From the IMG/VR virus record IMGVR_UViG_3300009503_000018, positions 1-64,000 of that record: a stretch of DNA of 64,000 nt; one strand, 5' to 3'. Each line of letters begins with the position of its first letter. Positions within the stretch are counted from its first letter, which is position 1. This DNA comes from a virus. Below are positions 4,601 through 37,912 of this stretch, in pieces. Under the pieces are notes generated by a model. It did not search any database. It was not told where the DNA came from and worked only from the letters and a program-made list of their open reading frames with translations. Position numbers and translations under genes: made by a program.

Positions 4601-5006
4601 CATAGGCATGCAAAATCGTCTGTGACTCATCACCAGGCTCATCCATAATGAGATATGCCCCAGACCACGGCATATCCCCATGCATGTCGATCGCTCCGCC
4701 GATAACCGGATCGACGTTGTAAAACAAACGCCAATATTGGTTGAGTTGAGCGAGTTGGACCGGAAGTTGTAACCGATCCGGAGAGGAGAATAACGGATGA
4801 TACGGACGCGCGGGTGCCCGTATCACCGAAGCACCGCCGGACCCAGCGAGTCCGGCGGTTGCCGTCCGACGAAAATTCGGGTGCGCTACACCCGTCCCTT
4901 GAACATCTGGTCCACCATAATGAAAAATGGATGGACCCGATCTATTAGCGCTCGCGGTTGCTGACGCGTTTTTCGAAGCAAACTTCTCTAAGTCTTCTCT
5001 CGCCAT
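1617..5006 (-). CDS. Portal protein interrupted by a LAGLIDADG intein
   Basis: The 1129-residue precursor would splice to about 667 residues. Portals form the dodecameric DNA-entry ring at the capsid vertex. The N-extein (1-378) has portal-like features: the segment RLFYNVDPVIGGAIDMHGDM near residue 93, a long alpha/beta wing region, and HGETTYA just before the insertion. The C-extein (from residue 841, SANAGLQVLMMRYRTLREMF) continues the helical crown and ends in a Gly/Pro-rich tail (roughly residues 1025-1085). The intein spans about 379-840 with an endonuclease domain (LLGYYVAEG, GLFRGDG). The start at 5006 (MAREDLEKFA) is the first ATG. The intein is a sister of the one in the terminase at 48.5-49.7 kb. 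The portal call rests on extein pattern and length and on the packaging-motor context. Confidence 0.85.
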   Translation of the reverse strand: MAREDLEKFASKNASATASANRSGPSIFHYGGPDVQGTGVAHPNFRRTATAGLAGSGGASVIRAPARPYHPLFSSPDRLQLPVQLAQLNQYWRLFYNVDPVIGGAIDMHGDMPWSGAYLIMDEPGDESQTILHAYEDMLNQTELLSWLPKMTREYLIIGEIFPFCFWDDKEGIFTHITLHNPDYVEVVDSPLIDDDPILTLRPSQDLRRILQSTDPRYVRLRNKIPSDILASIAGGKNIPLDPLNASHIARKAFPYDIRGTSIMGRLFRILMYEDAVFNGQIQQAQRHALPLRVFKLGDPKEGWIPSPQNMEEFIEVLAESEVDPLAAIVYHYGLQVEYHGIEGKQLKITNEWDVIERAKLVALGINKSFLHGETTYATLCKSAKILKKNGSYVPLGDIKVGDEIIDKDGHSRKVLDKWDEGVINPMYKIRLAGNKTIIASDKHRWPVWVWPRTCGKQVRSRITSYTINASKKCLMCRHPRSKSLHDAWLLERRNRHQLAQEFFPGRSIQGVFTSWYQHLKHHVTVERQPAFKDTGARWTIGRHQSLKKLPANYEPYQKLPTKDLRIGDYFMVPREFEAVAPSQPIEFARLLGYYVAEGSIIGGKRCELTFSAAEYDTWAKDACALAETLGMTATRRLACSGAKVVGNSLNQPNVTRVYIGAPSGFLFSYHGGQYSHRKQLSEEVMHWPLEYKREFITGLFRGDGSLLEKTPYKNKKWVQRYIGYRTTSEQLAYQVELLLAQLGYACSRTTQKGVVRRDGYERQDLHQINIYGKFARDLAKMVWGVEWPIPHSRQQAWVDEKYVYLPIEKIEPIENNETVIDITVEGTHSFLAENVGTYNSANAGLQVLMMRYRTLREMFVSDWIYKKVFAVMAELNGFYRKPKKSEPDLPDSRDPVLEKQTMFLKDRMREIRAIQDPEKQAYEFLKIQPLIEEVNMAKSRRYIAMSKVAATAKSRVQKGKHLLYPHLQFEKRLDVRQDEAILRFWSELAQKGWISPRSVVQGAGLDYDAEMATLGQDAATIAKNQLLMSSLGGGKGPGGGGLGLPLGLGLGPGPGEIKPAPKTPPGEEVGQGAGAPGSAGGLSQPASVVRDIMRKTADLQNIPEEIACDIRAILSTDDTNTHIFVEGK
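2487..3872 (-). mobile_element. Intein with DOD homing endonuclease in the portal gene
   Basis: The segment encodes about 462 residues. Block A is visible as SAKILKKNGSYVPLGDIKVG, and the splice end as ITVEGTHSFLAENVGTYN followed by Ser+1. The endonuclease blocks are EFARLLGYYVAEG (residues 587-599) and EFITGLFRGDG (695-705), with acidic catalytic residues present. Aligned to the terminase intein, the first residue would be Thr379, not Cys; a Cys lies two residues later at 381. The penultimate residue is Tyr, not the usual His. Boundaries at the N end are therefore uncertain by two residues. Confidence 0.85.
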
Positions 5007-8382: not shown

Positions 8383-8703
8383 TTACCTCCGAGGGAAGTA
8401 CCGAGCGAGTTTTACCGCGAATGTTAAATCACCTTCGACTTTTAATTTCCCCAACATATATAACATTTGCATACTCTCTTTACCATTGACCATATCCAAA
8501 TAATCATCTTTGTTTATTGTTAATGTGCAATCTGGAGATGCACACTCCCCTGTCTCAATGCACAAAGTCCCATTTTGAATCTTCACAACCCATTTACTAT
8601 CCCCAATGATATTGAATTGATAAATCCCGTTTTCTCCTTGCGCTGCTGCCGCATCAAAAAATTGCGGGACATTCTTAAAAACGTCTTCTACCGTTTCGTA
8701 CAT
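8383..8703 (-). CDS. SCP2 sterol-binding-domain protein
   Basis: This 106-residue protein matches the SCP2 (sterol carrier protein 2) fold by eye. An N-terminal helix is followed by NGIYQFNIIGDSKWVVKIQNG, then the paired-strand segment CTLTINKDDYLDMVNGKESM, then the closing LGKLKVEGDLTFAVKLARYF. SCP2 domains bind lipids or other hydrophobic ligands in a tunnel. It is essentially one free-standing domain of the usual ~100 residues. SCP2 domains are rare in phages. Its place between a zinc ribbon gene and a helical-protein gene in the virion operon suggests a virion or membrane-entry role, but that is inference. Confidence 0.75.
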   Translation of the reverse strand: MYETVEDVFKNVPQFFDAAAAQGENGIYQFNIIGDSKWVVKIQNGTLCIETGECASPDCTLTINKDDYLDMVNGKESMQMLYMLGKLKVEGDLTFAVKLARYFPRR

Positions 8704-9209: not shown

Positions 9210-10154
9210 CTATGTTCGATTTTTTCTTTTTGGCTTCATAGGAGGATATCCCTTTTTGCGAAAATCTTGAGCAAGCGTAATTGCGCTTCGCACAAGGGCT
9301 TTCGCTTTCTTGTGTACTTCGATATCTTCAGAGAGCCGCTGTTTATCATACGCATAATCTTCATTGGGAACCGCCGAAAATCCGACATAATACGGATCAG
9401 GATGAAACATCAAAAAGTCGTCATTGCCATCGTACAGTTGTTTTGCGACGAGTTCAATATAAGAAATATCCATGTTATGGATACCTTTTTCAGGATTTTC
9501 TTGGTCTTTGGACGTAATAAAATAGGCACAGACTTTTCCAAACAATCGGGGGTCGTAGTGGACTTCGTGTTCGGTGGAAAGGCGAATCATTTTTTGTCGC
9601 CACGCCTGATCTTTGAGGGCGAATTCTTCTGGAGCCACGTAATATCCACCATCGAGACTAATACAGCGATCCAGCAATGCCTTAAGCCGCGTAGACATAG
9701 AAGACTGATTCACCCCTGTAGAAATCAACAAGACATCGGCTCGCAAAATCAACGGATACAATTGCTGAGCGCCCTCGTGAGGATAAGGAAAGCAATTACA
9801 CGGAAATCCACATAAGGCAGAACAGGTCGCTAAACAATTATTGCATGGCTCAATCGTATATTCATTTAAATGCACACGTTCGATATGAATCGGCTCATCG
9901 GAAGAAATCTCTTCTAGCCCTTTTTCAAGGAGCATCGTCGAATTAGAAATTTCCCGTGAGCAATTATTCACGCCACGACCAGACCCAAAAAGCGCCAACA
10001 CTTCAAGAGGGCGGTCTTTCTTTTTCCAATATTCGACCGCTTCCTGACACCGCCGGACATTGGTTTCGTGTCCTTTTCGATATTCGGAAAAATCAACGTC
10101 AGGCGCGTTCGATCCATACCGAATTTCTTGCCACTGTGTAAATGTCAATGCCAT
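9210..10154 (-). CDS. Flavodoxin-fold NAD(P)H-dependent FMN reductase-like protein
   Basis: This 314-residue protein has the flavodoxin-like order. It shows strand-loop VLALFGSGRGVNNCSREISN (about residues 53-72) for phosphate binding of FMN, then the Cys cluster CNNCLATCSALCGFPC, then ADVLLISTGVNQSSMSTRLKALLDRC, which resembles the substrate/FMN loop of NADPH-dependent FMN reductases and iron-sulfur flavoproteins. The Cys cluster could ligate an Fe-S centre or zinc. The start ATG overlaps the stop of the upstream 1198-residue gene. Such redox enzymes are unusual in a virion operon. An alternative is a flavodoxin-fold domain reused as a structural scaffold. Confidence 0.75.
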   Translation of the reverse strand: MALTFTQWQEIRYGSNAPDVDFSEYRKGHETNVRRCQEAVEYWKKKDRPLEVLALFGSGRGVNNCSREISNSTMLLEKGLEEISSDEPIHIERVHLNEYTIEPCNNCLATCSALCGFPCNCFPYPHEGAQQLYPLILRADVLLISTGVNQSSMSTRLKALLDRCISLDGGYYVAPEEFALKDQAWRQKMIRLSTEHEVHYDPRLFGKVCAYFITSKDQENPEKGIHNMDISYIELVAKQLYDGNDDFLMFHPDPYYVGFSAVPNEDYAYDKQRLSEDIEVHKKAKALVRSAITLAQDFRKKGYPPMKPKRKNRT

Positions 10155-13100
10155 TATTTCTTTTTTCGCAGACGGATGTAGATATCCTCCGACCCATCTT
10201 TTGTTTTTTCGACAACGTCTGGTCGAAGCGGCAGGGTTTCCCCTTGTAATATGGGAGTTCCGGGTTCAAACTCTTCCTGTGTATTCAATTTCCATTTGCG
10301 AAAAAATTCAATTGGTGGTTCTTTTTCTTGATGCTTTGCTGCGGCCCGTTCAGATTCTTCCGGCGCGCCCGGAACGCCCGGCTCAGGAAGGAAATTTTCC
10401 CCTTCTAACATGCGGACTAATAAATCGAATAATTCTTTTGATGCACGCTTCCGTCGCATAAAAACAACATCCGGTTTTCCAAATTGGCTCACATCCCACT
10501 CCTTTGGTGCCATTTCTTCGCTAAACGGCACTCGCTTATATTCTACAAATCCTTTCGACGTATACAAATTCGTAAGGAATCCTTCAAATGCGTCTAATGT
10601 CTCAGCCCCTTGTGAAAGGGCATGCTCGACGGCAGCGGCACCGGCACCACGAATCGGGCTCGCATTGAATACCGAAACAAGATCATTTTCCGGCGTAATC
10701 GCGTACCCAGTCTGTTCATCGGTAGACAAATATGTTCGCATTTTTCGATAATCATCCAGGCTATATCCGCTGAGAAATCCTAAATATCTTTGCACTTTTG
10801 GCGAAGTTTTTGCTCGTTCAATTGCCGCATAAAATTGCTCGGCCGGGACTTGACGAAACACAACCTGCGCCGTTTTTATCTGTACACGAGAGTTTTGCTT
10901 TTGTAAAGATGGTGTACCGGGCGTATGATCAGGATCGTACCCAGGAGGTTCGTCGCCTTTCCCAAATCCACGACTTGGGGCATTCAAGAATAGATGCGTC
11001 AACAAACAGCCTCCAAAGCCATAGCCGTATTCCCCCCATCCCGCCTGCGTCGGATTTACATCCGCACCCCCGGCATTATCGGCAGATTGTTCATGAATAT
11101 TCGAATCAATCGAATCCCCAAACCCACTCCCAGACGGACCACCAGAATCCGCAGACTTTACCAATGGAGGAACATAAAATGTACACCCACGACACGCCTC
11201 GTGTGTTTGACCTGCCCAAAATGTCGAACAGTCTCCGCCGCTATCATCGGATTCTCCGTCAGCCGATTTTTTCGACAATGACTGAACATAAAAATAATCC
11301 GATACTGCCTTCCGCAGTCCTGGACCAAAGACCCTTCCGTATTTAAGAAATACGGCTTCTTTGTCTTCGCCATTTTGGATATCGTAAATGGCATTCGCCA
11401 GCGCTTTTGATTTTTTCGTAAACTCGTCAATACTCGCAATATAGCGCTTTTGAATAGAAGATCCGGGTACGATTCGTGTAACATCGGCCCAAACATACGA
11501 ACCAGCGATTTTATCCGCGTCGGTATCATGGACCAGGTAATACATGCTCCCATATTGATACAGAGGAACGGGAATAGATGCGGATGATGCACGAATCATT
11601 GGCTTGACTGGTACTCCAAGCACGCGCGATGTCGGAACCCATCGAAATCCTTCGTGGATTAAATCACCGTATAACCGATCCTCACGACTAATCGGGGCGT
11701 GCGCCAAATCCAATGCCGACATTCCCTCGTGAATTAACGAATCAAATTCTGATTTGTAACGATCCACATCGGCGCGGTATTCGTCTGTAAACGGCAACGC
11801 ATAAAGGGCATCAACCAAATCTCCGACCGGAACCGGTTCTCCACGCACGACTTTCGCGAGTGTCTCTAATGCCGATTTATATTCCTCTTTCGCAAATTCC
11901 GTTCCAGAATTCGCTATATACTCTTTCCACTTGTCTTTTGCCCGATGATATGCTTGACTATACAACTTTCCCAGATACCGTTTTCTCCACCAATCGTTGT
12001 ATCCTTGGACCAATGGGTGATCGCGGCGAGACTTGGCTTTGTCGCGCAAAAACACGACTAAGGAATCGTCCAGGTTTGGTTTGGTTTTCGTAAACCAATG
12101 TCCGAAATCGTGATTCCCGGCACTCACGACCCATTGCGTATACAGCGTTGGAGAAATCGTTGATGGATCAGCCGTTGAAAAGTCACCTAAATCAGCGAGG
12201 TCGATATGCGAACACCGCCCCAAATATTTTTTCCACGCTTGAATATCATCCAAATCAGCAAAGACATGAGGAAGTTCTTTTTCGACCCATTCTCTTGGCG
12301 GACTCAAATGATACTGATACGCGTCGAGAGAACCCACGTATTCACCAATAGATTTCGCATAATCAACAACACGCCGAGCGAAATCCGCAAACCGCTCACG
12401 CAGATCACGAGGCATTTCTAAGAGCAACGGCTGATGCTTTTCTTCTTCTCCCTTGTCTTTTTTGTCTTTTGGTATTGGAGAAACATCGACAGCAACTTTA
12501 CCCGACAATTGGCGTTGAGGTCCCGGCATCTGCACATCAAACGACACCGGTTCATGTGTGTCAAATACACCACTTTGTTCTGCGCTTTGCTTTCTTCGAC
12601 CAATCTCATACCATGCCCACGGATCAACTTGAAGCATACGCGAGACCATAGAATGCGTCGAATTTAAAATTCCATCAATGTATACAAGAGGAGAAGACCG
12701 ACCTTCGACGACATCTTTCCGCAAGAGCAACTCGTCAAGGCTTTGCAATTTCTGGGTAAGAAATTCGACTTGAGCCGGAGCAAGATATTTTTTGGCTTTC
12801 CCCGCAAATATCGCGACGGCTTGCGCAGCTTGTTCATAAGCTTGCAATGAAGATTTTCTCTCGGCATCTTGTATCGCGTCATGCGCCCGCCGCCATGCCG
12901 ACCACAAATCTGGTGGGACACGTTCTTGTTCCCATTCTTCCGTTTGCGGCGCAAGAAAAAATAATGGGTCATCGTCTTCTGCGGTTTTTGTGAAAACGGC
13001 ATAGGCTGTTGCGAGTGGACCCCGTTCGGGACGATAGATCGGCGGGACCCGTTTGCGGCGCCTCGTGTCATCGTCATTGACCGTTGGGCTAATAGGCTGG

Positions 13101-13750
13101 AGCGGAATCCCAATGCTATCGGATGGTCGAAATTCCAATTCTCCTCGTTGCATCGGCGCGGCATGGAGCCCAGATTCAGCACCAAATGGTTCCCCAGAAG
13201 CCAATGACCCCGAACCGCCACCCCATTCGTTTTTGATCGTGTCTCCAGGAAATTTATCTTTTGGGGGGTTCCTTTTAAACGGAGGAACAGCGGCCAATCG
13301 GTACAGTAAATCCCGGAGACGAGAAGCCAGTTTTCCTTGTGTCGGTTCCGCCATATCAGCAAATTCTCGCACCGTCATTGTTTGGAATTTTTTAATTATC
13401 TCTTCCACATCTTGCCAAGCCCGTTCTTTCCCTTTCCATGCCCGCTCTCGATGATAAAGCAGTGTTCCAACTTGTTCTATCCAACGCTCTTTTCCTGTTT
13501 GCAAAAATATTTCCACATCGGTTGCCCAATACTCGCCTCGCAGAGGATAAATAAAAATCCGGATACGTAATAATACGTACCACGGTTTTCCGTCAACGAT
13601 AATCGGAATGTCCCGGTCTTCCCAAAACATATCACCGCTATGACCACCGCTATGATATGGCTCTTGGGTAAGACTCGTGATTAACGGTGTTCCGCTTTCA
13701 GGACTATTTCTCAAGTATTCATATAGGGTTTGTGTAGTAAACTCGGGCAT
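10154..13750 (-). CDS. Giant mosaic virion-associated protein with C-terminal GNAT-like domain
   Basis: This is a 1198-residue protein with no single family. Residues 1-150 look like a folded alpha/beta domain. About 150-330 are Pro/Gly-rich linkers. The middle (330-790) is long and helical. Around residue 825 comes LSKKSADGE, followed by a Cys cluster (CSTFWAGQTHEACRGCTFY). Residues about 985-1100 form a GNAT-like domain (VQRYLGFLSGYSLDDYRKM ... VFNASPIRGAGAAAVEHAL ... FGKPDVVFMRRKRA), a pattern seen in acetyltransferase-like domains of large phage polyvalent proteins. The gene lies 2 bases from its upstream neighbour. Large multidomain proteins in this position are often internal head or ejected proteins; that is inference. 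Confidence 0.75.
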   Translation of the reverse strand: MPEFTTQTLYEYLRNSPESGTPLITSLTQEPYHSGGHSGDMFWEDRDIPIIVDGKPWYVLLRIRIFIYPLRGEYWATDVEIFLQTGKERWIEQVGTLLYHRERAWKGKERAWQDVEEIIKKFQTMTVREFADMAEPTQGKLASRLRDLLYRLAAVPPFKRNPPKDKFPGDTIKNEWGGGSGSLASGEPFGAESGLHAAPMQRGELEFRPSDSIGIPLQPISPTVNDDDTRRRKRVPPIYRPERGPLATAYAVFTKTAEDDDPLFFLAPQTEEWEQERVPPDLWSAWRRAHDAIQDAERKSSLQAYEQAAQAVAIFAGKAKKYLAPAQVEFLTQKLQSLDELLLRKDVVEGRSSPLVYIDGILNSTHSMVSRMLQVDPWAWYEIGRRKQSAEQSGVFDTHEPVSFDVQMPGPQRQLSGKVAVDVSPIPKDKKDKGEEEKHQPLLLEMPRDLRERFADFARRVVDYAKSIGEYVGSLDAYQYHLSPPREWVEKELPHVFADLDDIQAWKKYLGRCSHIDLADLGDFSTADPSTISPTLYTQWVVSAGNHDFGHWFTKTKPNLDDSLVVFLRDKAKSRRDHPLVQGYNDWWRKRYLGKLYSQAYHRAKDKWKEYIANSGTEFAKEEYKSALETLAKVVRGEPVPVGDLVDALYALPFTDEYRADVDRYKSEFDSLIHEGMSALDLAHAPISREDRLYGDLIHEGFRWVPTSRVLGVPVKPMIRASSASIPVPLYQYGSMYYLVHDTDADKIAGSYVWADVTRIVPGSSIQKRYIASIDEFTKKSKALANAIYDIQNGEDKEAVFLKYGRVFGPGLRKAVSDYFYVQSLSKKSADGESDDSGGDCSTFWAGQTHEACRGCTFYVPPLVKSADSGGPSGSGFGDSIDSNIHEQSADNAGGADVNPTQAGWGEYGYGFGGCLLTHLFLNAPSRGFGKGDEPPGYDPDHTPGTPSLQKQNSRVQIKTAQVVFRQVPAEQFYAAIERAKTSPKVQRYLGFLSGYSLDDYRKMRTYLSTDEQTGYAITPENDLVSVFNASPIRGAGAAAVEHALSQGAETLDAFEGFLTNLYTSKGFVEYKRVPFSEEMAPKEWDVSQFGKPDVVFMRRKRASKELFDLLVRMLEGENFLPEPGVPGAPEESERAAAKHQEKEPPIEFFRKWKLNTQEEFEPGTPILQGETLPLRPDVVEKTKDGSEDIYIRLRKKK

Positions 13751-13752
13751 GG

Positions 13753-15084
13753 TTACGCCCTCATGGACTGCTCAAGACCACACCAGACACACATCGTCTG
13801 ATCGACGGGATCACGATTTGTAGCGGTTAATTTCCGCGTGCATACGGAACAGCCGACAGCGGACAAAGACACGGTTGAAGGATCATTTTCTGGTGACATA
13901 ATCCCTTCTTGTGGAATGCCACGATACCCAGTCCCGCTGGGGTTCGTATTTTGCCGTTCATACGACAACAAAAAATCTTCAGTATTATCAACTAAATCCG
14001 TTGGCGTTCCCGTGCCAGTCACATACATTGGCAATCCTGAAGCGATTTGCTCGCGAGCACGATCCGTGGACAACAAATGGGAGAGGACTTGATCCATTTG
14101 ATCAAAAAATTCTAACGCCTGTTGTGTCATGTCTCGCGTTCCGGCAGGAACCAATTCTAAGGCGACCCGTGTATCGCTTGGGTATAACACGTCCCGAATT
14201 TCATAATCGGGCATGCGATCAGCAAGAAATGCCCGCACGGTATTTGGATCCCTGGCAAATGCCCCCTCAATGAGCATGTATATCGTTCCATCGTGTCGTT
14301 TTTCTATGTCTTGGACGGTAAGACTGGCTTTTGTCCGCTTTTGCAAACCCACCATGTACGCGACCCCATTCTTACGCACGAAATCTCCCGTCAGGATAAA
14401 TATCCCTTCTGGGGAATCAATGCGACAAACCGACGCCGCCGACCGCATAAATTCGCATTCGATTTCCGCCATCCGTGGTACGGTCAATTCATCCGCCGCG
14501 TAACGCACAATTGCCATTTTTCTCCCGGAAGGAATGGGCGTCACATACAGCCGCTCACCCCATTGTGGCTGTGAATAACTCGCGCGGACAATCTCCCGCA
14601 ATTCCTCTTCCGTCAATCCAGCCAATTTTCGCAATTCCTCGTACACTTTCGTTGGTTGTGGTCGATTCCCTGGATTGACAATTTCACGTTTGAGTTCGAG
14701 CAGCAAATTCCGAATCCGCATGTGCGTCGTGCCTGACTGCGACATGTATTCCTGAAGTTTTGTTTTGAGCAGATCGCGACGATCACGGAGTTCTTTTACC
14801 GGTTTCCCTAACTCTGCTTCCACGTCACGGACCAACTGCTCTGCCTGTTCGATTGCCTTGCGCATGAACTCGGCCTTGCGTTCCTCTAAGGCACGAACGA
14901 TGTTTTCTAGTTCATAAAATTCACGCTTAAGCATCGCCAATTCCCGCTGAGTCAACACGCCCACGACAAGAAGAGAACCGTAGCGTCCTCGAAATGCCAA
15001 AATGTCTTGGCACGCCGCACATCGTTGACCAGTAGTCGGCACGAACAATTTTTCACAAGACACACAAAAACTTAGCGATTCCAT
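13753..15084 (-). CDS. Coiled-coil protein capped by zinc ribbons at both ends
   Basis: This 443-residue protein begins with a zinc ribbon (CVSCEKLF...CAAC, residues 7-25). A long predicted coiled coil follows (about 48-145, for example LKREFYELENIVRALEERKA), then a mixed alpha/beta body and a C-terminal ribbon (CSVCTRKL...CVWC, about 407-435). The start overlaps the end of the mCpol-like gene by 13 bases, which implies coupled translation. Zn ribbons at each end of a rod suggest a scaffold or tethering protein. I do not recognise the family. Confidence 0.75.
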   Translation of the reverse strand: MESLSFCVSCEKLFVPTTGQRCAACQDILAFRGRYGSLLVVGVLTQRELAMLKREFYELENIVRALEERKAEFMRKAIEQAEQLVRDVEAELGKPVKELRDRRDLLKTKLQEYMSQSGTTHMRIRNLLLELKREIVNPGNRPQPTKVYEELRKLAGLTEEELREIVRASYSQPQWGERLYVTPIPSGRKMAIVRYAADELTVPRMAEIECEFMRSAASVCRIDSPEGIFILTGDFVRKNGVAYMVGLQKRTKASLTVQDIEKRHDGTIYMLIEGAFARDPNTVRAFLADRMPDYEIRDVLYPSDTRVALELVPAGTRDMTQQALEFFDQMDQVLSHLLSTDRAREQIASGLPMYVTGTGTPTDLVDNTEDFLLSYERQNTNPSGTGYRGIPQEGIMSPENDPSTVSLSAVGCSVCTRKLTATNRDPVDQTMCVWCGLEQSMRA

Positions 15085-15974
15085 GTGTTATCCCGCTTCG
15101 CGACGCGAATTTTTGGAATCAATGTAAACTCTCCCTGTTTCACCGCATTGCTAAATTTGGACAACGCAATCCGTTCTCGGCCCCCATTCAACCATTGGAC
15201 CGATACGAATTTTCTCCCAACAAAGCGGACCAGTCCAACGCCTTTTTTAGCAACTAGCTTTTGTTCTAAGACCGGTGTTTCTTCCTGCACACGACTTTTA
15301 CTTTCTCCTTCTTTCGATTCATCAGAAGCTTCGGTCCGTGATTTCAACACATCACGATAGCTCGCCGCTTCTTTTGCGTAATACTCTTCGACCAGTTGCC
15401 GCGCCGCTTGATGATCATATCCCAAGCTGCGAAGTCGGTGATAATGCATTACTGCGCGGTATTTGAGTCCTGAAGATTCTCCAACTTCCGCAAGGTCGCT
15501 CTTTTCACGAATTTCTTCTTCACACGACTCTAGCTCTTTTTGTTGCTTGCGAATTTCATCATAGACTTTTTCCTGTTCAGAACTCCAAACCACGACTTGG
15601 TCTTTTCCTGTGTTTTTACCAATAACAAGAGCTTTATGGGCTTCTTCTGGTTTTTTACCGATACCTACCGTCGCCGTATGATTCGTATGCTTTTTGTAAA
15701 TCGCACGAACCGCATCACCAATTTCTTTGGGATCTCCGTCAATAGTAAAAAAGAGATTGTCGCCCCCGTAAAAAATGACGGTTCCACCATGCTCAGTCAC
15801 ATATTCTTCGACTTCAGCAAATGCGCTTTTGATTTGCTTTTCAAATTTTTGGGACTTCGCAAGGTCGTTTTCTTCCAGCGCTTCTTCGACGGTTTTTCCC
15901 ATATCGTCGCCATCCATGCCGACGAACCATTCTCCAGGAGCGGTCCCTACGTTCATTGTGATGTCTTCTGCCAT
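15072..15974 (-). CDS. mCpol/Cas10-palm-like (GGDN) nucleotidyltransferase or cyclase domain protein
   Basis: In this 300-residue protein, residues about 16-130 show the palm pattern of the Cas10/GGDEF superfamily: FVGMDGDDMGKTVEEALEEN (metal-binding Asp pair), helix EKQIKSAFAEVEEYVTEHGG, the turn TVIFYGGDNLFFTI (GGDN), then TVGIGKKPEEAHKALVIGKN. Minimal CRISPR polymerase (mCpol) proteins and archaeal GTP cyclohydrolase III share this layout. A charged coil follows (150-180), then a helical segment (188-215) and a small barrel-like end (GVGLVRFVGRKFVSVQWLNGG). mCpol enzymes make cyclic nucleotide signals; here the reaction is unproven. The gene sits among virion genes, not in a defence operon. 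The start ATG has a weak TTAGGTAAG site. Confidence 0.7.
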   Translation of the reverse strand: MAEDITMNVGTAPGEWFVGMDGDDMGKTVEEALEENDLAKSQKFEKQIKSAFAEVEEYVTEHGGTVIFYGGDNLFFTIDGDPKEIGDAVRAIYKKHTNHTATVGIGKKPEEAHKALVIGKNTGKDQVVVWSSEQEKVYDEIRKQQKELESCEEEIREKSDLAEVGESSGLKYRAVMHYHRLRSLGYDHQAARQLVEEYYAKEAASYRDVLKSRTEASDESKEGESKSRVQEETPVLEQKLVAKKGVGLVRFVGRKFVSVQWLNGGRERIALSKFSNAVKQGEFTLIPKIRVAKRDNTWNR

Positions 15975-15988: not shown

Positions 15989-16222
15989 TTATCCAATATC
16001 TTCTGGCGCGCGTTCTGTAACAACAAAGTCGTGCATGCCCAGCCAAATTTCACGCCGATTAATAGCGCCCCAAACGTCCCGATCAAAATATATGTGAAAG
16101 TGGTTAACCGTCCCCGACGGATTATCGCCAACAGCAATGATGCTTCCTTTCTCTCCGCAAAATCTATGAGGCGGAGAAACTTCGATTTTATCTCCAACTC
16201 GCGGATAATATTTGGCCGCCAC
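15989..16222 (-). CDS. Small KOW/SH3-like protein
   Basis: This 77-residue protein, YYPRVGDKIEVSPPHRFCGEKGSIIAVGD followed by HIYFDRDVWGAINRREIWLG, has the look of a single small barrel of the KOW/SH3 type. The alternative long frame over the same bases (minus strand) has no such pattern and is rejected. The gene lies 14 bases upstream of the mCpol-like gene and 15 downstream of a structural gene. Similar barrels (GDLVKFSHPTLGVVPGKIVRDD) occur inside the neighbouring 407-residue protein, so it may be a free-standing module of the same kind. Confidence 0.7.
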   Translation of the reverse strand: MAAKYYPRVGDKIEVSPPHRFCGEKGSIIAVGDNPSGTVNHFHIYFDRDVWGAINRREIWLGMHDFVVTERAPEDIG

Positions 16223-16625: not shown

Positions 16626-17849
16626 TTACTCTACTTTTACTTGGCGTGGTCCTGAATTTGGTCGTTTCGCAATATCTGCTAACGACACAGGAGCTTCTGG
16701 AGCTTCAGTCCCTGGAGGTTTTGGCTGTTTAGGTCCAGGGCCCATCGCCCGTTCAAATGCTGCTTGCTCCTCCCACTGCACTTTTTCCCATGCTTTGGTT
16801 GCCCCTTCATATAACTCTTCAGGTGGATTACTGTAATTTTGTCGCATGTATTGGACCAAATCCCACACCCCAATGCGAATTCCTTTATATAACGCATTAC
16901 GAATCAACATCTCTGCTTCCGTAATAATTTCATGTCGTGATAATGGGCGACCAGGTCCACCGACCTGCGGTTGGGGTCGATCTCCTGCGGGGGCTTGGAT
17001 TGGTCCTGTTGGTGTCGAAGACGAGGGAACCGGTTGTGCGATTTTCCTTTGGGCTTGATGATAAGGTCCAAGAATATAATCGTGCGGCACAGCAAGAAGT
17101 TCATCCCCATGACGGATAATGTATTGATAGCCATCATCGCGCACGATCTTTCCCGGCACAACCCCGAGCGTTGGATGAGAAAACTTCACTAAATCACCGA
17201 CTTCCCAATGATATCCACTATTCTTGAGTAGCGCGTTTTTACTCAATGGAGTTCGAACCGCTTCATAGACCATGCCACACTGTGGACACGATTTTTCTGG
17301 ATCTTGTGGATCTTTTCTCTGCAAATACGCCCCATCATGTTGACAATGCTGCGGACGACGATGTGGAAACGCTGCTTTTTTGGACAATCGAGACAACCGA
17401 CGAGCATACGTCGTCCCTGTCCCCGGTTCGATCCGTTGTGCTTCCCCTGGAGCGGGAGTAGGGCCCCCCTCTTCCCCTGACTGCGCTGGTGTAGTCGGCG
17501 TGCTTTTTGGATAGACGCGCGGAGCCGATCCGGGCTGCATATGGGGGATGTTGTATTGCTGTCCCGATTCGTCAACAACAACAACCTGTTGTGACGTATT
17601 TGTCAAAATGCGCATCTTCTTCGGTGTACCATCCGCCATCGTCAATTCGACTTCTTGACCTGGAGCTAAATTGCGCAAGTCTTGAGCCGTTTTTATTCGC
17701 GCTTTTGCGATATAGGTGTATGCTGCCGTGCGATTTGCAAATTCCCACGCCAAATCATGCCCCCATATTGCAGTGATAGGGGATTCAGTATCAGCAATAA
17801 CCCGATACTCATGACCAGACAACAATACACAATCAGCGAGATATTTCAT
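16626..17849 (-). CDS. Mosaic protein with zinc ribbon, barrel modules and two LSKK/LSKN tags
   Basis: In this 407-residue protein the N-terminal 50 residues are a small domain (MKYLADCVLLSGHEYRVIAD). Residues about 58-108 form a barrel-like unit (PGQEVELTMADGTPKKMRIL). A Pro-rich linker follows, then RLSKKAAFPHRRPQHCQHDG with a CPQCG ribbon, then TPLSKNALLKNSGYHWEVGD leading into a second barrel (about 213-255). The C terminus is helical and Pro-rich. The two tag copies sit exactly at domain borders. The function is unknown; membership in the tag-bearing virion set is clear. Confidence 0.75.
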   Translation of the reverse strand: MKYLADCVLLSGHEYRVIADTESPITAIWGHDLAWEFANRTAAYTYIAKARIKTAQDLRNLAPGQEVELTMADGTPKKMRILTNTSQQVVVVDESGQQYNIPHMQPGSAPRVYPKSTPTTPAQSGEEGGPTPAPGEAQRIEPGTGTTYARRLSRLSKKAAFPHRRPQHCQHDGAYLQRKDPQDPEKSCPQCGMVYEAVRTPLSKNALLKNSGYHWEVGDLVKFSHPTLGVVPGKIVRDDGYQYIIRHGDELLAVPHDYILGPYHQAQRKIAQPVPSSSTPTGPIQAPAGDRPQPQVGGPGRPLSRHEIITEAEMLIRNALYKGIRIGVWDLVQYMRQNYSNPPEELYEGATKAWEKVQWEEQAAFERAMGPGPKQPKPPGTEAPEAPVSLADIAKRPNSGPRQVKVE

Positions 17850-18778: not shown

Positions 18779-21700
18779 CTATCGTGGTCTATGCGTGTAT
18801 GGTCCGGTCGATGTCGGCGTCAGATCAGCAACATCGACTTGGAACTGCCGACGCTGACTGTCTTCGACCGTTGCGCGATTTCCAGTATTGTCAATGGCAA
18901 TAACCAAAACTTCCCGTCCACGATACATTGCGGGTTGGAAAATGCCCATCCCCTTGTCAAGAAGGGCTTTCTTTGACAAGGCGACACTTGCCGTGCTCTT
19001 CTTCTGATGACTAAAGTAATGAACTTGCTTTAGTCTCTTTTTGGCCTGTTCTCGCGTCTTATACGGACCACCGAGATTTTTGCCCTCCTCCGATTTTACA
19101 TAATATGCTCCCGGTCGTCCAACAATCTTCCCCACCAAAAGGCGCGCGGATAAGAGTCTCGTAGTCCCAATAAACCATCGTGCTAACTCGTCTGCCTCAT
19201 GAGAAGCCAATTTTCCAGATGCTTTGTAAAAGCGCAAAATCTCTCGAATATCCGCAATGGACAATGCATGACGATATTCAGTAATTGCTTGCTTCAAATC
19301 GCCGGAACGGCGAAATGCCGCGTGTACTTTTTGCTGCACGGCACGATTTGCTTGTCTCTTTGCCTCATAATCTTCTAGATCCCCTCCATACAGATACTCC
19401 CCGCATTGTGAACAATATTGTGGGGAGTCGCTTTCACCGAAAAAGATCGGTTGTGGAGTGATATCCGAATCATACATATCCGCGTCAGGAATAACATTCG
19501 GACCTTGAGCGATAATTTCCGAACCACAATCAGGGCAGTAAATCTCTCCTTGATAGACATACCCATCAAGACCCGGACCACCGAGAAGCAGCTCGGATTT
19601 TGTCACAGCCGTCTTCCTTCGGGCTTCATGACTCCCTAAATTTCCCCCATACAGATACGCCCCGCATTGTGAACAATGCTGTGGGAGTTCATGTTCACCG
19701 AAAAAGATCGGTTGTGGAGTGACATCTGAGTCGTATGCATCTTCATCAGGGACGACATCCGGACCTTGAGCGATAATTTCCGAACCACACGGAATACAAT
19801 AGAGTTCCCCGCGATAAACATACCCATCAAGACCCGGACCACCACGAAGCAATTCAGACTTTGTTGCCGCTTCTTTTGTCGTTGACTTCCATGACGGATA
19901 TTCATCACTCTCTCGGGGATACAACGCGCTTTGATCAGCACGTGGAGTCTCTCGTGGAGCTTGGCTCACCTGATCCGGCCGTTCCATATATTCAGTCTCC
20001 CACGGCGCTTTATACCACCACGCGGTCTTGCGTACTGCTTGTCGCCGCTTGAGCAAATTCCACTGGCGCTGTGCCTCTTCTCGTGTCTCGGGATCTGTTT
20101 CTGGATCATTGATAATATTAAACAACGCCCGAAGCTTTTCTTGAATGTCAGACGATTCTTGAGCAATGAGTTGTCTTCGCGATAATGCTCGTGCGTTCGC
20201 ATGATGCGGATATCGCGTCCATGTCGCACGACACGTTGGACACCAATACTTGTCCTCGGTTTTCTTAATCGTTAATTCTCGACAATTTGGACACGTCCCA
20301 GATTCTAACAACATATGACGGAATCTCTTTTCTAGGTACGCAGCATCCAACTGTCTACGAGCTTCCTGCCGTTTTTCGGGATCCGCACTGGGATCAGCGA
20401 CAATATCAGACAATCGGCGAATTTTTTCGACAAGATCCCGATTCTCGGACTTATCAGACGATTCTTGAGCAATGAGTTGTCTTCGTGCCATTTTGTTTCC
20501 TTCGAGAGTCCACGTGGAATGACAACGCGGACATCGGTATCCGGTCTCGGTCTTATGAACCCGAGATTTTCCACACTCCGGGCAAAATCCAGCGTGTAAC
20601 ATATGGATAGGTTTTGGTGATGTTTTACGGATCAATTCTTGTGCAACTTCTGATACATCGCGCTGTGAATACCGATGCCGACGATATTCTTTTGGCAAAT
20701 CGTACAATTTCTTTTCACAGCGTGTGCATTCTGGCGGATAATCCTCAAGCTCCCCGAGAAAAATTGGCTGAGGGACGATATTCTCGTCATACCCCTCATC
20801 TTCGCTATACACCTCTGGACCTTTTTCGATAATTTTCCGCCCACACTCAATACAATAGGGCTCGCCTTTATAGACGTATGCTTCCAGTGCGGGTCCTTGA
20901 TAAGCCGTTAACAGGTCTTCTTTTGTCCACTGGCTTTGGCGGCGGAAAGACTGTTTTTTTGATTCCTCCGGCGCGTCGGCTTCTTCTTTTTCTTCCGTGA
21001 CAAAATCCTGTAATTGTTCTGTAGCATGTTCAAGATGTTCGACCGTTTTCTCTAGTATTCGAACTTCCTCCGGCTCGACCCCTTCCGCTTTTTCATGTTC
21101 AAGGACATCCTTGACATGTTCGGTTACATGTTCGACATCGGACTTTAGCGTTTCGACAATTTCCTCTTCTAGTAGCTCTTCCGGATCACCAACGAAATCA
21201 AATCCCAATTCTTTTGGCGTCCCAGTATCGACAACTTCTAATTCAATGACTGGAACTTCCGTATCTCCAATTCCTGGAAATGCGACAACGGCAAAATTAT
21301 CGTTTGCATACCGCAAAAAGAGCGCTTCTTTCCCGTTGACACGCACCACATCACCTCGGGCAAATCTCTTTTCGGCTGTTCCGACGACCTGCCGTTCGGC
21401 GAGAGCAGAACTAATTTTCGTTAACTGCCGAAGATATATCTTCACACCGCCGTGCGACTGAAGTCCCGCAGAAATCAAAATCGCATTCGCCTGCTCCCAC
21501 GACATTCCAAATTCATAAATAAGAGCCTGCTCCACGCTATCGCGGGAGAGGTATTCACGCGGTTGTCCTTTTCCAGTATACAGGGTATAGACAAATGAAG
21601 CGCCAGACGTTGCACTCCGTCGGCACGTGATATACGCAGTCGGTGGGATCCGCTTCCACACCTCTCGCTCTTTCTTGAGTTTTTCATTATGCTGATCAAA

Positions 21701-21892
21701 CCATGCGTCTGCGATCTTCACTTGATGACTTGAAAACCGACCACATTTTACGCAATGGTAGTCCACCGTCCCTTGAACATGTTGTGGACCAACCGTGATC
21801 GACGCAGTCCGTTCGCACCAAGGACAAACCACATCAACTGATCGCGAGGATGTGAGTGCCTGTGCAACATCGAGCCCTGATAATTTCGTCAT
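18779..21892 (-). CDS. Zinc-ribbon repeat protein (at least eight ribbons) with LSKK and RRQLIAQESSD tags
   Basis: The protein has 1037 residues. The N terminus has a ribbon (VCPWCERTASI...CVKCG). A barrel-like unit lies near 170-225 and a long acidic coiled coil near 230-310. Module Z (a two-part ribbon, [GA]YVYxGExYC..CG..II...GP then TPQPIFFGE...CSQCG.YLYGG) occurs three times (about residues 330-400, 680-750 and 765-835). A second ribbon unit of about 115 residues ending in RRQLIAQESSD occurs twice (about 435-570). The C terminus has VALSKKALLDKG followed by a barrel (QPAMYRGREVLVIAIDN). The whole reads as a string of duplicated zinc modules. It is likely a large virion-associated or nucleic-acid-contacting protein, by inference only. 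Confidence 0.75.
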   Translation of the reverse strand: MTKLSGLDVAQALTSSRSVDVVCPWCERTASITVGPQHVQGTVDYHCVKCGRFSSHQVKIADAWFDQHNEKLKKEREVWKRIPPTAYITCRRSATSGASFVYTLYTGKGQPREYLSRDSVEQALIYEFGMSWEQANAILISAGLQSHGGVKIYLRQLTKISSALAERQVVGTAEKRFARGDVVRVNGKEALFLRYANDNFAVVAFPGIGDTEVPVIELEVVDTGTPKELGFDFVGDPEELLEEEIVETLKSDVEHVTEHVKDVLEHEKAEGVEPEEVRILEKTVEHLEHATEQLQDFVTEEKEEADAPEESKKQSFRRQSQWTKEDLLTAYQGPALEAYVYKGEPYCIECGRKIIEKGPEVYSEDEGYDENIVPQPIFLGELEDYPPECTRCEKKLYDLPKEYRRHRYSQRDVSEVAQELIRKTSPKPIHMLHAGFCPECGKSRVHKTETGYRCPRCHSTWTLEGNKMARRQLIAQESSDKSENRDLVEKIRRLSDIVADPSADPEKRQEARRQLDAAYLEKRFRHMLLESGTCPNCRELTIKKTEDKYWCPTCRATWTRYPHHANARALSRRQLIAQESSDIQEKLRALFNIINDPETDPETREEAQRQWNLLKRRQAVRKTAWWYKAPWETEYMERPDQVSQAPRETPRADQSALYPRESDEYPSWKSTTKEAATKSELLRGGPGLDGYVYRGELYCIPCGSEIIAQGPDVVPDEDAYDSDVTPQPIFFGEHELPQHCSQCGAYLYGGNLGSHEARRKTAVTKSELLLGGPGLDGYVYQGEIYCPDCGSEIIAQGPNVIPDADMYDSDITPQPIFFGESDSPQYCSQCGEYLYGGDLEDYEAKRQANRAVQQKVHAAFRRSGDLKQAITEYRHALSIADIREILRFYKASGKLASHEADELARWFIGTTRLLSARLLVGKIVGRPGAYYVKSEEGKNLGGPYKTREQAKKRLKQVHYFSHQKKSTASVALSKKALLDKGMGIFQPAMYRGREVLVIAIDNTGNRATVEDSQRRQFQVDVADLTPTSTGPYTHRPR
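19375..20905. repeat. Duplicated zinc-ribbon modules inside the 1037-residue gene
   Basis: Two close copies of module Z lie at about 19380-19595 and 19634-19855 on the plus strand (they share accgaaaaagatcggttgtg and acccatcaagacccggacca). A third, diverged copy lies at about 20695-20905. A different ribbon unit is doubled at about 20040-20310 and 20315-20600, each copy containing gattcttgagcaatgagttg. The near-identity of the closest pair suggests recent duplication or gene conversion. Confidence 0.85.
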
Positions 21893-22396: not shown

Positions 22397-22489
22397 TTAA
22401 ACACGCCTTTTTATCATATTTACAACTTCAGCCGCCGTAATTTTCAATCTTTTTTCAAGCAAAGCCGCTTTTTTTGATAATATTTTCAT
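22397..22489 (-). CDS. 30-residue peptide made only of two shared tags
   Basis: This short gene encodes 30 residues: MKILSKKAALLEKR followed by LKITAAEVVNMIKRRV. The ATG overlaps the stop of the 858-residue gene by one base (TAATG), the same coupling used at 18185. It ends four bases before the next gene. Its whole length is the LSKKAA..LEK tag plus the KITAAE tag, with no domain attached. Either it is an expressed minimal tag or the remnant of a larger gene; the intact overlap and frame favour expression. Confidence 0.6.
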   Translation of the reverse strand: MKILSKKAALLEKRLKITAAEVVNMIKRRV

Positions 22490-25065
22490 TATTGCATCAC
22501 TTCAGTCAATGTATCAGCAAGCTGACGCGCAATTCCCCGCCCGCGCCAATGCAGTGGAATTTCCACAACCCGCAATTTCAGTGGATTACATTCTACGCTC
22601 AATCGGGCCCGAGCAATCATATGAAATGCAGTCACGATATTCCCTGTTTTTATCATCACAACAGGACTCCAACACGCCTTGAGTTTACTCTCGATGTGTT
22701 TTCTTCTCCACCGAACAGATTCCATTTCTTTTCTTCGTAATTCTTTTCTTTGTTCTGGTGTCAAATGAGAAATATCCGTTCCATACAAGCTCGGATAGCC
22801 AGTCCGGCGAGACCACATCCGATAATCACGCAGCATTTGCTTGGTCTCATCGGTGAACGCGGGTTCCATCCAATACATCGCATGTTCGCTTCCCTTCGTA
22901 TCCAAAGCATCATCAATCCATCTTGAGGGATCTCCGGGCCAACTTTTCCCGCTAAAAATATTCCCGGTATTGTGTTGCAACGTATTGATTTGATCTATCA
23001 GGATCCCCAAATACCGCCACGGCATGTTTCGACGCAACGCTTCTTGAAGTTGCAACGCGCGAATAGCAGCCAAAGCCCATCGCGGACCTCCCCAATTCGA
23101 AGCCGACAAATCGGTATTAAACGCCCGAGCCAAATCAGCTAAGTCCGCGCTTTGTAAGTCATCTATATCATCTCGATATACTTTTTTATTCAAAATTTTT
23201 TCCATTTCTAGGATATTCGAAAATTCTTCGTTCCATTGTTCTTGCAATATTCCTTCTTCATCTTCTTCTTTTTCTTCTCGTTCGACTGTCTCTTCTGTTG
23301 GTCCTGTTGCGGCGAGGATTTCACCGGTTGTTCCGTTAATCATAATCAAGGTTCCGACATCGAGAGTCTTCCCATCTGGAAACTTAACTTGATTATCGTC
23401 TATGGTAAATCCGGCCCCTGTCACACACGGTTTTCCCATTTGCCGGGCCACGATCGCGGCATGCGCTGTAGGACCTCCATGCGCCGTCAGAAATCCCACA
23501 GCCGCATTCATCGCAGAAATATCTTCTGGCGTTGTCTCGGGCCGTACCAAAATTACTGGCCCTTCTTGTGCCATTTGAACCGCCATTTCGGCAGTTGTCG
23601 CAATACGCCCGGTCGCTGTCCCTGGAGAAGTCCCAATCCCTTTTGCAATTACTGCGCGATCAGCAAATTCTTTCACCCAATCTGGTGGAACGATGTTGGG
23701 GTATTTTTCAAAAAACTGTTCCAAATCGGGGTCAGTTTGCGTTTGCAACAAGACATTCTTATATCGTTTCCATGCCGCCGTGAGATCTGGTTGGATTTCT
23801 TTCCAAATCAACGCATCATATTCATCGGGGTTTTTCGTATTGTACAGTGGTTTCACACCAACGATTGTCAAAAATACATCATCAGCATCTGTACTTAAAA
23901 TATCCTCATAGCCTTTTAGGCGCTCAACCGCTTGAGCAATTTCCTGTTCATCTAATGCATTTATCAATCGCTTGAGTTGCACCAAATATTTGAATTTCTT
24001 AAGCTTCTCTTCGTCGAGTTGTTCGCGTAGGGTTTCACCAACTGGCGCCACCGTTGTAAGCACGGACTCAGGATGCGCAATCAATGCGCGTTCAAAAAGA
24101 CGCCAGGAAGACGGCTTATATGTGGAGCGAATCGTAGACCACGGCACCCATTGATTACGCTCGGGGTCGAACAAAGAAAAATCAAACCATTTTGAAGTAT
24201 CAATAGTAATAGGAGGCGGTTCCGACCGCGCTGGGAAAAGTCGCTGTCGTGGCTGTGCAATAATACGCCAACCAGATTTTGTGACTTCTGGCTGTTCTTG
24301 CTGTTCTTGCTGTTCTTGTCTTGGCGTAATGTGTGGTAATATTAATTGGACTTGACCTGTCGTATCGAGAAATGCTCGTCCACATAACGGGCACCGATAC
24401 GGTTCTCCAGGCAATTCTACAGGAGTAATACTCTCATAATCCACTTCAACTTCATCTGGCTGCGGATAAGGTTGGAATTGGTGTTGATGATGTTCTTCCC
24501 AAAAATCCCCAGCGTAAGGCGCCTCTTCGTCGTCCGGTAACATATCCGTTTCAGCGGAGCACCCCAAATATGTTACCCCTGTCTTATCAGTAAAATTCAC
24601 GCATTTGTATGTTTGGTCCCCTACGAGAGCCCACATGTGCGGTTTTTTGTCTCCACACTCCACACAACGGTGTCTTAACGATGTGTCCTCATACTCATGC
24701 AAATATTTGTCTCCGCAGGAATCACAAGTGTGGTATAACGTGCCTTCGGCAGTAAAGTCATGTTCGTCTGTTTCGCCGCAAACCTCACAGGAATGATAAC
24801 CTTTATTATCCGTCGACCATTCATGCACGTGTTCTTCTTCTTCTTCTTCATTCTTTATAGCTGTAAGAGTGTGGTCAGCTTCTGTGCGGACGAAGTCTTC
24901 AAGCTGGGAAGCATATTCTCGTGCGAGGGGGAGCACAATTTCTTCCGCATATCTATCCCATTTAGGAAATGCTCGATAAAATGCGGGCGGAAGTTGCATG
25001 ACCGCATAAAAATTGTACAGTTCGTCTATAGCGACAGCGCGACGAATGAATCGGGGTCGTGTCAT
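22489..25065 (-). CDS. Chimera: zinc ribbons, PPDK-type phosphohistidine domain and GNAT-like C terminus
   Basis: This is an 858-residue protein. Residues about 80-185 hold a string of Cys/His pairs (CEVCGETDEHDF, CDSCGDKYLHEY, CVECGDKK), and a ribbon near 224-229 has CPLCG. Residues about 475-587 match the swivelling phosphohistidine domain of pyruvate phosphate dikinase/PEP synthase (GIGTSPGTATGRI, VILVRPETTPEDISAMNAA, and GGPTAHAAIVARQMGKPCV with His535 as the expected phospho-acceptor). The C terminus (about 795-855) resembles a GNAT core (LRVVEIPLHWRGRGIARQLA). No ATP-grasp or TIM-barrel partner domain of PPDK is present. How the histidine would be phosphorylated is unknown. The start at 25065 lies 3 bases from the phosphatase gene. 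Confidence 0.8.
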   Translation of the reverse strand: MTRPRFIRRAVAIDELYNFYAVMQLPPAFYRAFPKWDRYAEEIVLPLAREYASQLEDFVRTEADHTLTAIKNEEEEEEHVHEWSTDNKGYHSCEVCGETDEHDFTAEGTLYHTCDSCGDKYLHEYEDTSLRHRCVECGDKKPHMWALVGDQTYKCVNFTDKTGVTYLGCSAETDMLPDDEEAPYAGDFWEEHHQHQFQPYPQPDEVEVDYESITPVELPGEPYRCPLCGRAFLDTTGQVQLILPHITPRQEQQEQQEQPEVTKSGWRIIAQPRQRLFPARSEPPPITIDTSKWFDFSLFDPERNQWVPWSTIRSTYKPSSWRLFERALIAHPESVLTTVAPVGETLREQLDEEKLKKFKYLVQLKRLINALDEQEIAQAVERLKGYEDILSTDADDVFLTIVGVKPLYNTKNPDEYDALIWKEIQPDLTAAWKRYKNVLLQTQTDPDLEQFFEKYPNIVPPDWVKEFADRAVIAKGIGTSPGTATGRIATTAEMAVQMAQEGPVILVRPETTPEDISAMNAAVGFLTAHGGPTAHAAIVARQMGKPCVTGAGFTIDDNQVKFPDGKTLDVGTLIMINGTTGEILAATGPTEETVEREEKEEDEEGILQEQWNEEFSNILEMEKILNKKVYRDDIDDLQSADLADLARAFNTDLSASNWGGPRWALAAIRALQLQEALRRNMPWRYLGILIDQINTLQHNTGNIFSGKSWPGDPSRWIDDALDTKGSEHAMYWMEPAFTDETKQMLRDYRMWSRRTGYPSLYGTDISHLTPEQRKELRRKEMESVRWRRKHIESKLKACWSPVVMIKTGNIVTAFHMIARARLSVECNPLKLRVVEIPLHWRGRGIARQLADTLTEVMQ

Positions 25066-25068: not shown

Positions 25069-26250
25069 TTAGAAGAACTTGTGGAATTCCTTTTTACTCA
25101 AAATCCGCTTGGGTTTTCTACGGAACAAACTCGGAAAAGGAAAATGCCATTTCGGTAGCCGCTCCATCGTAGTACGGGGTTCAACTTTTGGCAATCCGAC
25201 ATATTCTCGAATCGCTTCCTCCATCACTCCTTCCGGCATAGCAACAGGTCTCTTTTCATTAATCTCGTTGATGATTTGGCTGTAAACTTTTTCTTTTTTT
25301 CTTTTTGTTAAATTCAAATCACGAAGTTGGTTCTGTAACAAATACGCTGCGATTACAGAAGGCGAACGGTTCATTCCCTCTCGACAGTGAACATAAATAT
25401 TCTTGCCTTCGCTCGTCCAACGTTCGAGGGTTTCCACCGCACGGCGAATATCCTGGAGACGACGAGCATTTCCTTCGGGCGATTCATCGAATTCATCGAT
25501 TGGGATATGTACATATTCTACATCTGGAGGTGGTGAATACGTATTTTGACTCACATTCAAAATGGCATCAAACGGTTTCCCCGTCTGACGATCACGCATT
25601 AACCACGCATTGATAATATCTCCAAGCCAGATATTTGGCGTAATTTGATCGGCTTTAATATCCTTTCTGTCCATATATTTTGTCAATAAAAATTGGACTA
25701 TACGGGACATATGAGGGCCGTGCTGCACTTTTGGCGGTGCGGAGAACCCTTGCGGTACAGAAAACAGTTCCGGTTGTGATGGCCGGGACAAATCACGTTC
25801 AACATATCCGCATGTGTTACAAAAATAATAAGGCTCTTTACCAATTTCGACCATCCCTATACCCGAACCACAATGTGGACATTTCCCAAAACTAATATCC
25901 TTTGAAGGATCAGGATCTTGATATTCGGGAAATTCTTCAAATTCAAAATCTTGATATTCTTCGGGGATTTCTTCGTGATATTGTTTCCAATGCTCCGATT
26001 GGTACAATTGTTCATTGGGGCTCAAAAGAACCGTTTGTCCACATTCTGGACACTGGATATTCCATGCTGAATATTTAACAATACTCTTTTTCGATAATGC
26101 TGTGGATTTACGATGTTTTTTCCAATGTTCCGATTGGCGAAGATTCTCGTGCGCCTGGAGAACGACCATCTGCCCGCACTCAGGGCATTGAACGATATCC
26201 CAACCCCATGCTGAAAATTTAACAATACTCTTTTTCGATAAAATACGCAT
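25069..26250 (-). CDS. Dual-specificity phosphatase with N-terminal zinc ribbons and LSKK tags at both ends
   Basis: This is a 393-residue protein. The N terminus is a duplicated unit, LSKKSIVK[FY]SAW plus a CPECG ribbon ending EHWK (residues 4-43 and 52-89), then a third ribbon (CPHCG...CNTCG, 124-148). Residues about 205-350 form a DSP/PTP catalytic domain with VHCREGMNRS (Cys289, Arg295) and candidate acid Asp252 or Asp255 in PIDEFDESP. DSPs remove phosphate from Tyr/Ser/Thr or from nucleotides and RNA 5' ends. The C terminus is RILSKKEFHKFF, another tag. It directly precedes the phosphohistidine-domain gene, so a joint phosphate chemistry is possible. Confidence 0.85.
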   Translation of the reverse strand: MRILSKKSIVKFSAWGWDIVQCPECGQMVVLQAHENLRQSEHWKKHRKSTALSKKSIVKYSAWNIQCPECGQTVLLSPNEQLYQSEHWKQYHEEIPEEYQDFEFEEFPEYQDPDPSKDISFGKCPHCGSGIGMVEIGKEPYYFCNTCGYVERDLSRPSQPELFSVPQGFSAPPKVQHGPHMSRIVQFLLTKYMDRKDIKADQITPNIWLGDIINAWLMRDRQTGKPFDAILNVSQNTYSPPPDVEYVHIPIDEFDESPEGNARRLQDIRRAVETLERWTSEGKNIYVHCREGMNRSPSVIAAYLLQNQLRDLNLTKRKKEKVYSQIINEINEKRPVAMPEGVMEEAIREYVGLPKVEPRTTMERLPKWHFPFPSLFRRKPKRILSKKEFHKFF

Positions 26251-28246: not shown

Positions 28247-28279
28247 AGTAGGTGTGAGACCTTATTTCGTTGGTGCATT

Positions 28280-28498
28280 CTACACCAAAACACAACACGG
28301 AATTACTTCTTCTGTTTCAATATTGCTAATTCGAAGATTCGGAACACATCCCATGATTCCGCGTCCCCACACTTTAGCCCATAGCTTTAATTCTTGAATC
28401 GCCTGTTCTAATGACCATGCATTCCGATGATGCGCGATCCAGCGCGAATCATGGAAATACTCAATCATCCAAGTCCCTGGTTTAGTGTTATGCTTCAT
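28280..28498 (-). CDS. Small-paralogue family member (W-I-E-Y ... RNIETEE)
   Basis: The start is taken at MKHNTKPGTWMIEYFHD (28498), which follows the upstream stop at 28503; an earlier in-frame start overlaps that gene. The 72-residue protein has the family pattern: W.IEYF, then SLEQAIQELK, then LRISNIETEEVIPCCVLV. It is the version of the 163-residue neighbour that lacks the zinc module. The family has other members at 32.0, 32.3, 37.7, 37.9, 38.2 and 46.0 kb. The function is unknown. Confidence 0.7.
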   Translation of the reverse strand: MKHNTKPGTWMIEYFHDSRWIAHHRNAWSLEQAIQELKLWAKVWGRGIMGCVPNLRISNIETEEVIPCCVLV

Positions 28499-28502
28499 AA
28501 GA

Positions 28503-37909: not shown

Positions 37910-37912
37910 GAC

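Follow-up and report, generated by a model that had tools for sequence, protein, structure and literature searches.

In the open-licence literature, mCpol is described as a bacterial and archaeal defence enzyme. Its known products, 2',3'-c-di-AMP and 3',2'-cGAMP, bind immune effectors and not housekeeping receptors. In KpOptS, the mCpol protein of Panoptes, residues D6 and D57 bind metals and are required for activity; residues S30 and N34 of OptS adjoin the nucleobase, and position 30 controls the product mix (PMC12657218, PMC12657230). In Panoptes the mCpol product controls OptE, which is released once that product vanishes, e.g. when a phage makes Acb2; control of the same kind is predicted for the CARF/SAVED relatives of Panoptes. 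The known phage counters to cyclic-nucleotide immunity remove signals by means of sponges or nucleases, and it is this removal that Panoptes punishes (open-licence literature). A second group of described proteins, the polyvalent proteins, is encoded near late genes, and phages and plasmids are predicted to inject them; their known domains include GGDEF and RelA, for which interference with the nucleotide responses of the host was proposed, and mCpol is not mentioned among them (PMC5512222). No report of mCpol in a phage head operon was found in the open-licence literature, and PHROG searches did not reveal one either.

The window, a stretch of 64,000 nucleotides, is part of a 139,527-base IMG/VR record, the remainder of which was also read. 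On its minus strand, an ORF (15974..15072, ATG to stop) encodes a protein of 300 amino acids, P0001. The motifs quoted for this frame in the first-pass annotation, MDGDDMGK, FYGGDNLFF and VGIGKKPEEAHKAL, are all present, and the Cas10/mCpol palm layout that it had read at the N terminus was recovered with Pfam: residues 17-129 (15588-15926) match the mCpol family PF18182 with 75.4 bits (E = 5.9e-21, cut-off 26.4). The Cas10-Cmr2 palm2 family PF22335 reached 40 bits. In a phmmer search of the PDB sequences, P0001 matched the two distinct mCpol entries, 9nwn and Panoptes OptS, with an E-value of 1e-4, which improved to 5e-15 with a profile of four phage sequences.

As a Cas10 control, the mCpol model was run over 399 bacterial genomes. 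This gave 31 matches, mostly frames of Cas10/Cmr2 size scoring 21-38 bits, with one at 64 bits. A genome scan for mCpol yielded just one Cas10/Cmr2, which was used as a negative control. Because such frames match the model, passing the Pfam cut-off is not enough to tell mCpol from Cas10. The phage mCpol proteins scored 70-80 bits, above every control frame, apart from one cut by a contig end that scored 53. Like P0001, the Cas10/Cmr2 palm2 carries DGDDMG and GGD motifs; unlike it, P0001 is a 300-residue protein with a single palm, no HD domain, no palm1 and no CRISPR locus, and no cas gene was found among the neighbouring proteins searched. A Cas10 origin was rejected, given the lower Cas10 scores on the mCpol model and a 16-sequence tree in which Cas10 stands apart with 100% support and the mCpol part has little resolution. 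The GGDEF family was also considered and rejected: it ranks below mCpol by fold, and the record of the window gave no Pfam GGDEF match. Judged by profiles and by the predicted fold, P0001 almost certainly belongs to a phage branch of the mCpol family.

The fold was predicted with AlphaFold2 from a seven-row alignment; residues 12-150 were confidently modelled as a palm (block pLDDT 71-96). In Foldseek searches against the PDB, the top six matches were OptS/mCpol chains (9mnr, 9pd0, 9nwn) with E-values of 3e-6 to 2e-5 and TM-scores on the target of 0.76-0.85, followed by GTP cyclohydrolase III of M. jannaschii (E 9e-5) and then by GGDEF domains and Cas10 complexes. Structure prediction and fold comparison therefore agree with the initial palm reading, with mCpol chains ranking first. 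Conservation of the metal aspartates was borne out as well, by alignment rather than by coordinates: Asp21 of the DGDD motif (15912-15914) and Asp72 of the GGDN motif (15759-15761) align with the catalytic Asp6 and Asp57 of KpOptS. Across ten aligned sequences, seven from phages and three from bacteria, OptS positions D6, G7, D8, D57 and K105 are invariant, and the catalytic residues D21, D23, D72 and K120 of P0001 are identical throughout. At the position of OptS Ser30, which governs nucleobase selectivity (PMC12657218, PMC12657230), P0001 has Glu45 (15840-15842), whereas all six other phage sequences have Ser; the equivalent of N34 is Lys49. With Glu45 at this position, the product of P0001 may differ or its activity may be altered, and the alignment makes a shift in base preference plausible. 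Going by its conserved residues, P0001 is probably catalytically active.

The C-terminal extension (15072-15587) consists of predicted helices and then possibly a small beta domain. The first-pass annotation had placed a coil and a barrel here. The coil holds, in that AlphaFold2 models helices to about residue 221, with moderate-to-low confidence beyond about residue 150. The barrel (about residues 240-290), guessed from the sequence, stays conjectural: pLDDT is below 40, and residues 206-300 are left without an AlphaFold2 model.

In the PDB, OptS is the best match of P0001 both by sequence and by fold. The two proteins share the mCpol palm, the metal aspartates and a compact DGDD...GxG...GK arrangement (KpOptS; PDB 9mnr/9pd0, also 9nwn). 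However, they are only about 20% identical, P0001 has GGDN and OptS AADG, and a Glu occupies the Ser30 position. P0001 also differs from OptS in being encoded by a phage, within a head-gene operon, with a long C-terminal extension and without OptE. The best named tblastn relative (28% identity) is the CARF/2TM-coupled mCpol on a plasmid of Nostoc sp. UHCC 0302, which differs in being bacterial and in forming a two-gene unit with a downstream gene for a TM-tailed protein. Using PADLOC, effectors of the 2TM, CARF, SAVED and HEPN families were not found in 16 neighbouring proteins of the window, in line with the earlier remark that no effector gene lies nearby; as a positive control, this search did pick up the 2TM effector beside a Sulfitobacter mCpol. 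Likewise, the arrangement that marks Panoptes, in which mCpol shares a two-gene operon with an effector of the S-2TMbeta (OptE) or CARF/SAVED-2TM kind, was not recognised among the 16 neighbours, and no effector was recognised in the other mCpol-bearing phages.

The phage of this record is contractile-tailed, with a sheath gene at 122544-124553. Its capsid protein (133657-134820) has homologues among phage major head proteins, including that of phage G, and homologues of its protease (135680-137857) preserve the order portal-protease-capsid. The portal gene lies within the window (1617-5006, minus strand; phrog_16240, E 6e-80, PHROG). Portal, protease and capsid are consecutive in the sister contig G003; by this synteny, the left portion of the window most likely forms one late block with the record's right end. 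The late virion operon proposed as the setting of the gene is thus supported, for the portal by PHROG and for protease, capsid and sheath by homology. A single strand is used throughout from 29 kb to the portal, and within this block the mCpol gene precedes the portal gene by about 10 kb.

The neighbours of the mCpol gene described here are all on the minus strand. Upstream, after a gap of 14 nt, a gene for 77 amino acids follows (15989-16222). Downstream, the next gene (13753-15084) overlaps the mCpol stop by 13 nt; its product has two zinc ribbons, recognised by eye, and a coiled coil, matches no effector family, and gave a mean pLDDT of 45 in single-sequence fold prediction. Beyond it lies a gene for a 1198-residue late-operon protein with a phrog_2563 domain near its C terminus (10154-13750; PHROG). 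Further upstream are a 407-residue protein with a zinc ribbon and LSKKA-type motifs (16626-17849), an 858-residue protein with a match to the PEP-utiliser mobile domain (22489-25065) and a protein combining zinc ribbons with a dual-specificity phosphatase domain (25069-26250). The latter two belong to a set of four late-operon enzymes without obvious virion role, the others being an FMN reductase (9210-10154, minus strand) and an SCP2 sterol-carrier domain protein (8383-8703, minus strand).

Relatives were searched in several ways. A tblastn search of 50,697 phage records (INPHARED) with five mCpol sequences, namely that of the window, two bacterial and two phage ones, gave no credible match; the single marginal one was to a tape-measure protein (E 0.8). 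Queried singly against IMG/VR, P0001 and two neighbouring genes gave no matches either. A degenerate DNA pattern, DGDD-x-G followed about 43 codons later by GGD/AAD, identified 94 stretches in IMG/VR, four of which encode mCpol domains according to a profile search, with Pfam in agreement. An IMG/VR alignment search with the mCpol of the window and three pattern-found relatives added four more places. In total, mCpol was found in eight further IMG/VR contigs (G408, G409, G411, G410, G412, G413, G415 and G414), or seven when G411, a near-copy of G409, is counted once; G412, G413 and G415 form a close trio. The seven contigs represent about five lineages with a GC content of 26-65%, each lies over the Pfam cut-off, and all mCpol-bearing phage contigs are metagenomic. 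A relative search with the most divergent phage copy, G414, returned only G414 itself.

The place of the gene is similar in these phages. G408, G410, G412, G413 and G415 have mCpol directly before the portal, then the protease and, if the contig extends that far, the capsid; G409 has it between capsid and sheath. In six of the seven contigs mCpol is thus found beside portal or capsid genes, G414 being too short for placement. The mCpol domain of P0001 is 40-43% identical to those six and so better conserved than the virion proteins, for which the identity between the same phages and the window's phage is 27-36% (portal), 22-31% (capsid) and about 25% (sheath); RecA, a cellular-type protein, reached 49% in the same comparison. 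The DGDD/GGD and GK..GK motifs are fully retained although the phages span 26-65% GC and identity is only 40-50%, and for one close pair the pN/pS of mCpol was about 0.25, a value drawn from 9 differences only. Position among head genes and sequence constraint together argue for a real role in the head module and against a stray acquisition. The gene was not found in Rctr197k, the closest phage with a named genome (capsid 44% identical), nor in contig G008, a 32.7-kb relative, so mCpol is not essential to the wider group. In the tree, G414 groups with the OptS and Sulfitobacter sequences at poor resolution, and the tree thus does not establish one phage clade or a single origin. As a side observation, the top viral fold match to P0001 in BFVD was A0A6J5L1I5 (E 1.4e-7), an uncharacterised protein of an uncultured Caudovirales phage and possibly another phage mCpol.

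In the case of G409, mCpol is part of a frame of 1992-2002 residues which also holds an ATP-dependent DNA ligase, a GGDEF domain, a LigD primase-polymerase, a sigma-70-like domain and a LigD 3'-phosphoesterase. The GGDEF domain is canonical (107 bits), so that two distinct cyclic-nucleotide synthase folds are found in a single phage protein (L180:7652-13657, 2002 aa). The peptide FHKEAQIGK occurs twice in this frame, once immediately before mCpol. Phage mCpol genes share the late-gene location of polyvalent proteins, and G409 shares their multi-enzyme fusion; unlike these and its relative G409, P0001 has one recognised enzyme domain. In G410, giant frames upstream of mCpol and portal (34833-62275, L172-L174) contain NILLREG or near variants about 22 times, often about 150 residues apart and frequently with K-x-A directly after. 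From their sequence, these frames look like polyproteins cut at L-x-E sites. L-x-E before G fits the sites of the T4 prohead protease. An A-X-E processing site is documented in SPN3US (PMC10052503).

In the window itself, LSKKA/KTA-like motifs stand between zinc ribbons and other domains in the minus-strand genes from 5 to 29 kb, e.g. in 25069-26250, 18779-21892 and 16626-17849, and could be a processing or head-targeting signal. In the window's phage, a phi-x-K-[TKER]-A motif is modestly enriched, being counted 10 times against 2.7 expected in the genes upstream of the portal. As it is also enriched in non-late genes (15 against 7.4 expected), the prohead-protease reading is only suggestive. 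In P0001, no clear processing site was found. On sequence grounds, the chances that mCpol is packaged in the virion or delivered appear evenly balanced.

Altogether, several distantly related phages carry a domain previously known only from bacterial signalling immunity, which suggests that some phages bring their own nucleotide signal. According to the proposed mechanism, phage mCpol would, like OptS, use NTPs to make a small cyclic (di)nucleotide. The enzyme would be made late with the head proteins and probably be packaged and delivered with the DNA; alternatively, it would be made late and act within the same infection. The product would then occupy host receptors, such as Panoptes OptE-type proteins, CARF/SAVED-2TM proteins or CBASS effectors, and keep them off or confused. 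As no effector accompanies phage mCpol, the receptor should be that of the host. The full account, in which an active mCpol-type synthase is probably carried in or delivered by the virion and its product disturbs the nucleotide immunity of the host, is the favoured reading, though somewhat short of an even chance. Taken alone, interference of the P0001 product with host immunity is a tentative proposal. More doubtful is a narrower version, in which a conserved phage class of virion-delivered mCpol floods the cell at infection with a decoy cyclic dinucleotide that restrains Panoptes effectors and/or blocks CBASS, with product specificity varying between phages (Ser or Glu at the OptS Ser30 position). 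If true, a signal-making phage would represent a counter-move different from, and logically opposite to, the removal of signals. It would account for a phage using signal-removing proteins without triggering Panoptes, and the bacterial decoy strategy would have been reversed by phages.

Several other explanations have to be weighed against interference with host immunity. An active cyclic-nucleotide synthase could instead reprogram the host by a c-di-AMP or c-di-GMP type of signal, or time the late programme, with no immune target. The canonical GGDEF in the same G409 polypeptide, the signalling roles proposed for GGDEF in polyvalent proteins (PMC5512222) and the lack of a recognised effector gene nearby are in its favour; nevertheless we regard it as unlikely, since the known mCpol products are unusual and bind immune effectors (PMC12657218, PMC12657230). 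Less probable still is a structural or regulatory head protein whose palm merely binds nucleotide or metal and makes no cyclic product. The head-module position, the fusion to coils and extra domains and the replacement of Ser by Glu45 would suit such a protein, but not the complete retention of the DGDD/GGD and GK..GK motifs across divergent phages. A solo OptS-like defence, or superinfection exclusion, in which the signal controls a host effector or an unrecognised phage effector against rival phages, is improbable to a similar degree: the characterised mCpol genes do belong to defence, and the fold prediction for the overlapping downstream gene (13753-15084) leaves room for such a partner, yet neither the 16 neighbours nor the remaining phages yielded a recognised effector, and the genes are part of virion modules. 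Lastly, a GTP cyclohydrolase III-like enzyme, which had been named as the main alternative, is hardly credible, as this second-best PDB fold group ranks clearly below mCpol by profile (a weak Pfam match of 14.6 bits, under the family cut-off of 21.3) and by fold, where mCpol structures are better throughout, and the palm of P0001 is single and not tandem.

Besides mCpol, the record showed some further features. The portal gene (1617-5006, minus strand) is apparently split by an intein, with matches to LAGLIDADG and intein-splicing domains. A terminase-like protein (47885-51070, plus strand) also appears intein-split, from similar sequence seen by eye and split homology; its gene is distant from the portal gene and runs on the other strand, whereas in G008 and Rctr197k it is found a few kb upstream of the portal. 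Small paralogous protein families were noted at 37673-38462 and 27755-28537 (minus strand; WVIDIYT.../WIIEYF...), and the peptide TGEIIPY is common to three proteins of the record. Finally, a repeat-rich segment (58-321, LSNTTDLN) lies at the end of the record and, in the same-species contig G005, upstream of the protease gene; these repeats are probably the reason for the assembly break there.
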